From assembly GCA_031177355.1 (NCBI GenBank), contig JAPSGR010000013.1, positions 1 through 46,284 on the forward strand: a stretch of 46,284 nt of DNA, read 5' to 3'. This DNA is from Candidatus Nitrosocosmicus sp. Lineage in GTDB: Archaea; Thermoproteota; Nitrososphaeria; Nitrososphaerales; Nitrososphaeraceae. The notes beneath the pieces were generated by a model. The model made no database searches, had not been told where the DNA came from, and worked only from the letters and a program-made list of their open reading frames with translations. This document shows, piece after piece, positions 25,054 to 28,409 of the stretch (position 1 is its first letter; each line of letters opens with the position of its first letter). The position numbers were made by a program, and so were the translations under genes.

Positions 25054-25473
25054 CTAATTTAATTTAGATAAAATTAATTGGTATGCCTTTTCTGCCTGAT
25101 CTTTTTTGGGTAGTTGAACAAAAAAAACATTACTTTGGGAAGATTCATGCGGAGTTATTCCCAGCATACCAGATGAAGCCAAAAATTTAAAAAAATCCGT
25201 AGTCTCATTTGCATATAGAAGAAAATCAAATTCCAAATTCGTCCTTAGAAAATTTATATTAAGATTCACAAAAACATGATGTCCATCATCATAAATATTC
25301 AGATTAGTATCGATCAAATTTGACTTTCCGTAAGACTCTCTCATTATGGATTCAAATAACTGCGTTTCAACCAACAAGCATGGGACCTTAGTTTGGTTAT
25401 AACTTATCAGAGAGTAGCCAAATTTATGGACATTTGCAATGAAATCCTCAAGTGTATTTAAATCTCTATTCAA
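25054..25473 (-). CDS. Hypothetical protein, 139 aa
   Basis: A 139-residue soluble alpha/beta protein without a recognised motif. A helical N-terminus (TLEDFIANVHKFGYSL) precedes beta-rich segments (HHVFVNLNINFLRTNLEFDFLLYA) and a terminal helix (DQAEKAYQLILSKL). The start is TTG 25473. It follows the AAA ATPase gene by 88 bases on the same strand and could be the third gene of that transcription unit, although the gap leaves room for its own promoter. Confidence 0.6.
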   Translation of the reverse strand: MNRDLNTLEDFIANVHKFGYSLISYNQTKVPCLLVETQLFESIMRESYGKSNLIDTNLNIYDDGHHVFVNLNINFLRTNLEFDFLLYANETTDFFKFLASSGMLGITPHESSQSNVFFVQLPKKDQAEKAYQLILSKLN

Positions 25474-25561
25474 TTAGCTTATTACAAAGACGATCAACTA
25501 TGCATATTAATATTTTACCTTGTCAAGATAAGATCATTAAAATGCATTTGACTAACTACGA

Positions 25562-27199
25562 TTAACATAATTGAATAGATTTAGCTAGCAACATAGCTTT
25601 TTGAGGATCTTCTGAACTGAATTCATCGCTGTCATATTTTTTACTAAAATATAGAAGATCTGCAAGCTTCCATTTATCAATGGTTACAAATGTAGTACCA
25701 TTTTTTTTGATGGTAGTTATGTTCGTAGTCAGGATAACAAGTTTATCAACTACAGAATTTCTTTTTGTGCTCTTTACTATCTTATCAAAATTTTTATTTT
25801 TATCTGAATCTACCGCAATCGATATACCAACCTTCTTTCCCATTTGGTCATTGTATACTGCGTCTAAAAATTCTCCGTCAAGGTTTTCTTCATATTTCTT
25901 CACGGTTCCTAACTCCTCAAAATAATTAATCAAATTTTTAACAGCGTTACGGACATTTGATTCTACAACATCTTTGTCTATAGAAATTTTTCTCATCTTT
26001 ATAAAATCTGAAATTGGGATGCCCATAATGCTCCCTCTTAATCTAAGTCCGGGATAGACATTCTTGATAGTTTCTTCTATTGACTGCTCGTCAATGCTTT
26101 GAGATTTCTTGTGTGCCGCCACTTCAAAAGCATGATACAGAACATTTAAGATAGATCTAATGTTTCTAAAATCAGGAAATTCATCATATATTATACGAAT
26201 CTTTGCTGATAAATCTTTTTTTTCCTGTCCGGTTAACTCACCATTATAATGAAGCACATACTGTAAAACAATATCGTTAATTTCATCAAATGAGTTGGAA
26301 CCCGCTAAGTCAATCTTGTAATTAGCTTTTTCCAAACGATCAAATAGCGAAGGACTAATTTTGGAAATTTCGGCATAATATGAAGGGGTTGTTATTATCA
26401 TCAATATAGCATATGGAATGTGTGAATTAATTAAACCCTTTAAGTACTCTAACGAACTTGGATTGGTATCAAATTCGTCAATTTGGAAAATGGTAACTTT
26501 GTTAAATAATTTGAAATTTATCTTTGCCATGGTGGTAAGCACCATCGTAAGGTTCTCAAAGGTTTTTAAATCAGAATAGTTAAGAGTACCCGTTCTTATC
26601 ATTTCAGTTATCAAATGTATCTCAATTTTGGTAAAATCCTTAGACATTAGTTCAATCAAATGTTCATAAGACAAACTCATTTTCTTTTGTGCCATTTGCT
26701 CCAACTTTTCGGAAACAGAATTACCATTCATTGCATCGAAAAATCCATACTTGATTATTTTCTTTACAAGCTTTGGGTTGTGTGTAAAGTTTTCCCTAAG
26801 ATAGTCAAGAATTTTACTTTTTACAGAATCATAATAGTCTTTTCCAAATCCAGAAACTATTGAGTGAAAAAAATTATCTATATCTCTGGGCTGAACCTGA
26901 GTGAGGTCTGTATAAGAGATAATCGATTTTTCCTGAAATTCATTTAGAGTTTTCATGTGCAACGTTAAATGAGTTTTACCGGAACCAACATCTTGAATCA
27001 TTGTGATTATTTTAAACAAATCCTCATTGTAGAGATTCTGATTGCTCAACTTTCCGCTCAAGTCATCAAGACAGCACTTTATTGAATTCAAAACATTATT
27101 ATGTCTTTTACCTCCTAGAATGCGTGCGTTATAGACAGTAGGCGTAGGGCTGCTAGGAAAAGGATTTGTATTTAGATTATATGGAGTCAACAAATACAC
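25562..27199 (-). CDS. AAA ATPase, ExeA/ORC-like, of unknown function
   Basis: A 545-residue P-loop ATPase. It opens with PYNLNTNPFPSSPTPTV, resembling the NPF-x-PDP start of ExeA/TniB-type AAA proteins. Walker A is DVGSGKTHL (residues 70-78), Walker B VTIFQIDEFD (235-244), sensor 1 MIITTPSYY (about 267-275), and a candidate Arg finger lies in PSLFDRLEKA (about 283-292). A helical lid follows, then a C-terminal domain (about 410-540) with strands KVGISIAVD and KLVILTTN. That pattern resembles nuclease-like domains, but without a clear ExK pair. The start is GTG 27199, inside the upstream wHTH gene (13-base overlap), so translation is coupled. Function unknown; a DNA-associated switch or loader is inference. 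Confidence 0.8.
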   Translation of the reverse strand: MYLLTPYNLNTNPFPSSPTPTVYNARILGGKRHNNVLNSIKCCLDDLSGKLSNQNLYNEDLFKIITMIQDVGSGKTHLTLHMKTLNEFQEKSIISYTDLTQVQPRDIDNFFHSIVSGFGKDYYDSVKSKILDYLRENFTHNPKLVKKIIKYGFFDAMNGNSVSEKLEQMAQKKMSLSYEHLIELMSKDFTKIEIHLITEMIRTGTLNYSDLKTFENLTMVLTTMAKINFKLFNKVTIFQIDEFDTNPSSLEYLKGLINSHIPYAILMIITTPSYYAEISKISPSLFDRLEKANYKIDLAGSNSFDEINDIVLQYVLHYNGELTGQEKKDLSAKIRIIYDEFPDFRNIRSILNVLYHAFEVAAHKKSQSIDEQSIEETIKNVYPGLRLRGSIMGIPISDFIKMRKISIDKDVVESNVRNAVKNLINYFEELGTVKKYEENLDGEFLDAVYNDQMGKKVGISIAVDSDKNKNFDKIVKSTKRNSVVDKLVILTTNITTIKKNGTTFVTIDKWKLADLLYFSKKYDSDEFSSEDPQKAMLLAKSIQLC

Positions 27200-27846
27200 C
27201 TCACAAAGCCGTGAATTATTCCTCTTAATACTACCCCTTCATAACCTCCGGATGATAGCTCATATTTTTCTGGATATGTTTCTATTAATTCTGCTACGAG
27301 TGAATAAAACTCTGTGTTCGTTAAATCGCATCTTCCACACAATTCTTCCTTGATAGACGATAGTTCCAACCATCCGATTGATGAGGATTTCTCAGCGATT
27401 ATCAAATCGAATTGTTCCTTAAAATCGTCAAGTGTGATACTATTTTTATTGTCATCTATTAGAGCGGTATCGCCCTTTAGTGAGCTAATCTTTTCTTCTA
27501 TGCGAATAAAAGAACTTTTTACTTCGGCAAGTTCGCAATCAATTTTTTCAACATATTTGAAAATGCTATCTGAATAGTTGTTTAGCTTACTTTGAATACC
27601 TAGTATAGATTCATATAAGTACCTAAATTTGATATCTGAAGAAAGCAGGTATTCGAGGTAAAATTTTTTACCCCAACAATAAATATAAGTTCCTTTTTTT
27701 GATACACTAATTTTGTCCTGTGAAACCAAATTGTTCAAATCATCTTCAAAGGTTTCCTCGGAAAACATTTTCCTCAACTCGGATTTTTTAATTCCAACCG
27801 ATCCAAAAGAATTAATAGCTTCATAAATTATATCTATGTTGGACAT
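27187..27846 (-). CDS. Winged-helix / coiled-coil partner of the AAA ATPase
   Basis: A 219-residue protein with a winged-helix-like N-terminus (DIIYEAINSFGSVGIKKSELRKMF...NLVSQDKISVSKKGTYIYC, about residues 4-62). A central heptad-like region follows (SKLNNYSDSIFKYVEKIDCELAEVKSSFIRIEEKISSLKG, about 84-125), then a second possible winged helix (about 150-205, GWLELSSIKEELCGRCDLTNTEFYSLVAELIE...). I use ATG 27846; TTG 27855 would add three residues. Its 3' end overlaps the ATPase start by 13 bases, which implies stoichiometric expression. I do not recognise the family. The architecture suggests a DNA-binding, dimerising adaptor that the ATPase acts on. Confidence 0.7.
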   Translation of the reverse strand: MSNIDIIYEAINSFGSVGIKKSELRKMFSEETFEDDLNNLVSQDKISVSKKGTYIYCWGKKFYLEYLLSSDIKFRYLYESILGIQSKLNNYSDSIFKYVEKIDCELAEVKSSFIRIEEKISSLKGDTALIDDNKNSITLDDFKEQFDLIIAEKSSSIGWLELSSIKEELCGRCDLTNTEFYSLVAELIETYPEKYELSSGGYEGVVLRGIIHGFVRCIC

Positions 27847-27930
27847 ATACACCAAAGTATTAAAAAAAGTTAAAAAAAAGATAGTGAAAAAAAAATAATA
27901 TTCTTGTAAAAAAAAATAAACAATTATAAG

Positions 27931-27942
27931 ATTTATTTATTA
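27931..27942 (+). promoter_or_regulatory. TATA-like element of the C/D box sRNA
   Basis: ATTTATTTATTA is centred about 23-25 bases before 27960. That places the predicted transcription start at, or a few bases before, box C of the sRNA. Spacing supports an independent promoter on the plus strand. Confidence 0.45.
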
Positions 27943-27956
27943 AAGATATATTCCAT

Positions 27957-28017
27957 GGGAATGATGATACTTTTATCTGATTTAGACCATGATGATAGCA
28001 CTAGGGTATCTGACCTT
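27957..28017 (+). ncRNA. Box C/D guide sRNA (candidate)
   Basis: All four boxes occur in canonical order: box C ATGATGA (27961-27967), box D' CTGA (27977-27980), box C' ATGATGA (27989-27995) and box D CTGA (28010-28013). The D guide is the 14-base TAGCACTAGGGTAT (27996-28009) and the D' guide is nine bases, TACTTTTAT (27968-27976). A short GG/CC closure flanks boxes C and D. Archaeal C/D sRNAs assemble with L7Ae, Nop5 and fibrillarin and direct 2'-O-methylation of the base opposite guide position 5. By that rule the D target would contain AUACC with the second C methylated. The target RNA is not proven. No ORF covers the segment. Confidence 0.8.
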
Positions 28018-28094
28018 ATTCTAAACTAAAAATTTTAAGTTAGGTGAACATATAAATTAATAAGGAAAGTTTTAGGTATAGGTTTATCGATCAA

Positions 28095-28409
28095 TTGTCC
28101 AATGATGAATACAACTATAAAGACAACGTTGGAGTTGATGAGGTAACTAAAAGAACCAACAAATTGCTTCATGACTTCAAGGAAAATTATGTAAGAAATA
28201 ACAATAGTGATTTTGTCAACGATGCTATAACCAACATGGTTGTTTGTTGTAAAACATACGAGAAAATATTTGAAGGCTTTATCATCGTCTCACAAATTAA
28301 TAAAATGCCCCAAGAATTAATCGAGGGATTTGTTAAGTGGTCCACGGGTCAACTCGAGGATCTAAAAGAGAAAATTGAAGAAATTGATAAAAAGAGAGAT
28401 ATGCGCTAA
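28095..28409 (+). CDS. Hypothetical protein, 104 aa
   Basis: A 104-residue, mostly helical, charged protein with start TTG 28095 (DEYNYKDNVGVDEVTKRTNKLLHDFKENY...). Its C-terminus (GQLEDLKEKIEEIDKKRDM) looks like a short coiled coil. No known motif. It lies about 80 bases after the C/D sRNA and 75 bases before the heme o synthase on the same strand; relation to either is unclear. Confidence 0.6.
   Translation: MSNDEYNYKDNVGVDEVTKRTNKLLHDFKENYVRNNNSDFVNDAITNMVVCCKTYEKIFEGFIIVSQINKMPQELIEGFVKWSTGQLEDLKEKIEEIDKKRDMR

Follow-up and report, generated by a model that had tools for sequence, protein, structure and literature searches.

A conserved box C/D sRNA of ammonia-oxidising archaea with a predicted methylation target in 23S rRNA

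What does the short stretch between two divergently transcribed genes of this archaeon encode, and if its product is a guide RNA, which RNA does it guide to? The window, i.e., the whole 46,284-nucleotide stretch of DNA analysed, comes from the 2.32-Mb genome of an ammonia-oxidising soil archaeon of the genus Candidatus Nitrosocosmicus. A preliminary description had reported two AUGAUGA and two CUGA boxes in the order C-D'-C'-D together with a 14-nt D guide, and inspection of the sequence located every one of them. Read 5' to 3' on the plus strand, the ~60-nt gene (27957..28016) comprises the 5' arm of a terminal (kink-turn) stem, GGG (27957..27959); box C, AUGAUGA (DNA ATGATGA; 27961..27967); a 9-nt C-D' spacer (27968..27976); box D', CUGA (DNA CTGA; 27977..27980); box C', AUGAUGA (DNA ATGATGA; 27989..27995); a 14-nt C'-D spacer, TAGCACTAGGGTAT (27996..28009); box D, CUGA (DNA CTGA; 28010..28013); and the 3' stem arm, CCU (28014..28016), which pairs with the 5' arm. 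The D guide itself, AGCACUAGGGUAU, occupies 27997..28009. Boxes C and D thus flank the RNA with C' and D' internal, which is the archaeal order; the GA of a kink-turn is present in both boxes alongside the terminal stem, and by sequence the sixth base of C and the first base of D form G-C for C/D and C'/D' alike. The array occurs once in the whole 46-kb window, under strict and relaxed box grammar alike, and in none of 300 dinucleotide-preserving shuffles of it, in keeping with the earlier view that chance is unlikely to produce this box order. It was likewise correct that no reading frame overlaps the element: on neither strand does an ORF of at least 50 aa overlap 27856-28094, and the sRNA is intergenic, lying between the wHTH gene (27187-27855, minus strand) and a 104-codon ORF (28095-28409, plus strand).

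Loss of boxes or guides in close relatives had been named beforehand as evidence against an sRNA; a search with a 101-base query instead found both conserved, the element being present in 14 of 15 genomes of the genus, its own included. Aligned genus members have in common GGAATGATGATAC...CTGA...ATGATGA-N-AGCACTAGGGTATCTGACC. Among 13 of them, boxes C and D' are invariant, as are 19 of the 20 columns formed by the D guide, box D and the CC that follows, the guide and box D being invariant in the genus. By comparison, only three of the nine columns of the C-D' spacer and none of the flanking columns are invariant, the flanks averaging 0.5-0.6 identity to the majority base. Since the D guide and boxes are nearly invariant as the D' spacer and flanks drift, the RNA appears to act as a single (D) guide RNA. 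The preliminary description had remarked that a nine-base D' guide is unusually short; the spacer is unconserved in the genus and is therefore probably not used as a guide, which accounts for its length. Comparison of the C-D' spacer with 16S and 23S rRNA in four genomes revealed no site common to the lineages, and in Nitrosocosmicus its pairing with the guide was not above chance (283 of 500 shuffles).

On a wider scale, 84,980 species genomes were scanned for the pattern; ~47 of the 57 stretches so obtained were from Nitrososphaeraceae-type archaea with complete boxes. Bacterial matches (L116, L117, L122, L126, L127, L150, L152, L154, and L164) were discarded as chance because no matching C and D' boxes lay upstream. 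A covariance model, trained on some members of the archaeon's own family (f1) and of a large sister family (f9) with most f9 genera left out, had matches in 42 of the 45 f1 genomes sampled and, among genomes of the class, in 200 of 300, with orthologues in most f9 genomes and in ten genomes of a deeper lineage (f19). Two matches in family f2 (L283 and L289) were without the guide and were not counted as homologues. These two (from G181 and G037), like L292 (G033) and L290 (G072), are weak model matches resembling box C/D sRNAs of a different sort, whose guides are unrelated. An alignment of 52 sequences shows covariation in the terminal stem: 82% of cells are paired, and 51 double-change cells were counted vs. 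22.4 in shuffles, a number reached by none of 500 shuffles.

The surroundings of the sRNA are also conserved. Divergent from it lies the gene for a 222-aa wHTH protein (27187..27855, minus strand), which belongs to the same operon as a 545-aa AAA+ ATPase (25562..27199, minus strand) and a further gene, p139 (operon 25054-27855, minus strand; no Pfam or NCBIfam family for the operon, the wHTH protein included). The wHTH and AAA genes stand divergently beside the sRNA in nearly all f1 and many f9 loci, so that the arrangement beside an AAA/wHTH operon, noted earlier for this genome, is kept in both families. Several f9 genera are without the wHTH-AAA pair and have p139 beside the sRNA; the f19 loci have different surroundings. 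As the divergent neighbours are the same in both families, the f1 and f9 sRNAs are positional orthologues across the order. The AAA protein matched no family above cut-off, and its predicted structure (mean pLDDT 81.5) weakly resembles the Orc1/Cdc6 and BrxC ATPases in fold. We saw no sign that the wHTH and AAA proteins act with the sRNA. On the other side, the 104-aa ORF (28095-28409, plus strand; TTG start) is conserved in the genus at 67-87% identity and belongs to no known family.

A TATA-like element, TTATAA, is present upstream at 27924..27929 (plus strand), the preliminary description having noted such an element, and is probably the sRNA's own promoter. Upstream of 73 homologues, A+T content is highest, at 0.89-0.97, between -32 and -29 relative to the C box, and TATA-like matches near -33 are found in most. 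Transcription would be expected to start near 27952-27957, and the position of the A+T peak agrees with a start near the GGG. TATA-like motifs are reported for ~20% of archaeal C/D genes (PMC7994747), among which an independent promoter would place this gene. Conservation, stem covariation and the conserved TATA-like element together strongly support the earlier proposal that this is a box C/D sRNA, complete and with a promoter of its own, and on the strength of its sequence and that of its relatives, 27957-28016 encodes a genuine box C/D sRNA.

Which RNA does it guide to? The window's guide alone gave no significant rRNA site, 25 of 60 shuffled guides scoring as well; the guide of a single genome is too short, and a comparison of lineages is needed to single out an rRNA site. 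Since the window's own assembly is without rRNA, the 23S target was read in congeners. We scored every aligned 16S and 23S site in eight genomes (16S was available for four), each with its own guide, and the best of all sites was 23S GUUACCC[U/C]AGG, with a mean of 8.54; shuffled guide sets equalled this score in 0 of 200 trials in one run and 1 of 300 in another. The target reads GUUACCCUAGGGAUAACAGG in f1 and (A/G)UUACCCCAGGG in f9 and f19. With A2451 as the E. coli reference, counting back gives what we take to be C2441 for the base paired at N+5 and 2443 for a base that differs between the lineages. The equivalent of 2443 is U in all eight f1 genomes read, and the guide has A in all; it is C in all 20 f9 and f19 genomes read, and the guide has G in all. 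A guide with G in place of A was found in none of 45 f1 genomes. The same search matched 29 genomes outside f1, nearly all of them f9 with complete boxes (L172 is without complete boxes), and its reversed control matched none. The covariance model accepts either base, and the guides found with it had G in all f9 and f19 orthologues read. This co-change of guide and 23S rRNA is probably one evolutionary event; the 28 genomes are therefore not independent, and its weight lies in the agreement with pairing and not in the number of genomes. Even so, it illustrates clearly how a guide may change in step with its rRNA target. By this evidence, the D guide most likely directs 2'-O-methylation of the 23S C equivalent to E. 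coli C2441, which by the presumed numbering lies ten bases before the catalytic A2451, within the strand that runs into the peptidyl transferase ring.

The geometry of the duplex varies among lineages. In Nitrosocosmicus, positions 2-9 before box D (CUAGGGUA, 28001..28008) pair with 23S UACCCUAG in eight contiguous pairs, one fewer than the nine-pair rule for guide/target duplexes (Dennis et al. 2015; PMC4644070). Adjacent to box D lies a U-U mismatch with 23S rRNA, and box D's own C pairs with G, so that nine pairs result when the first base of box D is counted across the mismatch. In other f1 sequences the base next to box D is A in 12 of 34, giving ten contiguous Watson-Crick pairs, and G in four, giving a wobble; the f9 duplex has nine pairs at positions 2-10. 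Complementarity of about nine pairs is represented by eight here, ten in part of f1 and nine in f9, and reaches significance for the combined lineages only.

In archaeal C/D sRNPs, L7Ae binds both kink-turns and is followed by Nop5 and fibrillarin, and the methylated base is that opposite the fifth guide base before box D (PMC4644070, PMC7994747). The anatomy of this sRNA fits each RNA requirement of that mechanism, and we infer the protein steps and the methyl group from the same scheme. L7Ae, Nop5 and fibrillarin would assemble on the C/D and C'/D' kink-turns. CUAGGGUA, together with the base that opens box D, would pair as the D guide with GUUACCCUAG of 23S rRNA, placing the C2441 equivalent opposite the fifth base before box D, and fibrillarin would add the methyl group to the ribose of that C. 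We consider it highly probable that the locus produces a transcribed box C/D sRNA that serves as a single-guide 2'-O-methylation guide for this position.

One D guide might methylate both 23S C2441 and the 16S 790 loop, which have UACCC in common, the C-D' spacer of f9 forming an internal stem that would cover part of the guide until a target displaces it; we regard this dual role as possible if unlikely. Also unlikely is a methylation guide whose main target is 16S GAUACCC in the 790 loop (C796 in E. coli numbering). This site forms seven contiguous pairs in all lineages when the first base of box D is counted, is second best over all genomes (mean 7.6), and has an A that can pair with the U next to box D found in nearly all f9 and all genus members, where 23S rRNA offers a U. 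However, 18 of 300 sets of shuffled guides score at least as well on 16S rRNA, the A or G at guide position 7 faces a mismatched G of 16S rRNA in f1 and f9 alike, and pairing at position 10 is confined to f1. Moreover, all genomes read have the same 16S segment, so that it does not explain why the guide changes between A and G; that change follows 23S rRNA. The six-base match to 16S AUACCC pointed out in the preliminary description thus exists, but, with no co-variation and a mismatch at position 7, it does not mark the best-supported target.

Very unlikely, in our estimate, is a box C/D sRNA directed at an mRNA or other non-rRNA, or one that acts as a non-methylating chaperone of rRNA folding. 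The conserved family guide, AG-N-ACUAGGGUA, is indeed longer than its 23S-pairing part, and orphan guides are common in archaea (PMC7994747). However, a non-rRNA target would leave the co-change of guide and 23S rRNA unexplained, and the tRNAs of the archaeon's own genome (29 ARAGORN genes, some probably mistyped because of introns) held no comparable site, the best scoring 6.9. Near-matches (two mismatches) to the full 13-mer complement in five genomes were at or below the reversed-pattern control. Finally, the locus might be no RNA at all, its boxes having come together by chance or serving the divergent promoter as a DNA element, as its seat between two divergent transcription units might suggest; given boxes and guide conserved over two families, a covarying terminal stem and a box order absent from shuffles, this is extremely improbable.

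As a predicted single guide for the 23S C2441 equivalent, the sRNA resembles known archaeal box C/D sRNAs (PMC4644070, PMC7994747) in its AUGAUGA and CUGA boxes, two of each and arranged C-D'-C'-D, its length of ~60 nt, a guide by box D obeying the N+5 rule, a kink-turn stem and a predicted target near the peptidyl transferase centre. It departs from the usual archaeal double guides of those studies in having one guide, and its spacers are 14 nt (C'-D) and 9 nt (C-D'), whereas theirs are 10-12. Ammonia-oxidising archaea fall outside the coverage of both studies. The predicted 23S site is absent from the hotspots named in the main text of PMC4644070, and a hyperthermophile guide to the same base may exist beyond that main text. 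No Rfam family contains the sRNA, and no match reached a gathering threshold. With thresholds lifted, 25 of 27 matches, all sub-gathering, were to C/D-box families, nearly all on the same strand and span; sR5 (RF01304), snoPyro_CD (RF00095), sR9, SNORD36, and others aligned over the full length. The best C/D score was 22.2 bits vs. a gathering threshold of 30, and that of sR5 was 20.8 vs. 40. Among the open-access papers searched, we found none that reported a box C/D guide RNA of ammonia-oxidising archaea by name. The RNA belongs to a known kind; in the collections searched, neither this family nor its target was present. The sRNA runs through both main families of ammonia-oxidising archaea, and its covariance model can be used in annotating their genomes.

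The D' side differs among the relatives. In f9 (L229-L248 and L173-L198), base pairs form within the RNA between the C-D' spacer and the first (5') half of the C'-D spacer, e.g., TTAGGTCAT/ATGACCTGG, TTGAGTATAA/TTATACTTGG, and TCAGAGT/GCTCTGG. Neither shuffled nor swapped spacers matched this pairing (0 of 500 for each), and one member has a fold z-score of -2.8; the D' side of f9 seems to be a structural stem and not a guide. In f1 outside Nitrosocosmicus (e.g., L146 and L124), the C-D' spacer is similar to the very 23S target (UUACCC and UUACUCU vs. UUACCCU). None of 500 shuffled spacers paired as well with the guide there, and spacer and guide could thus pair within the RNA.
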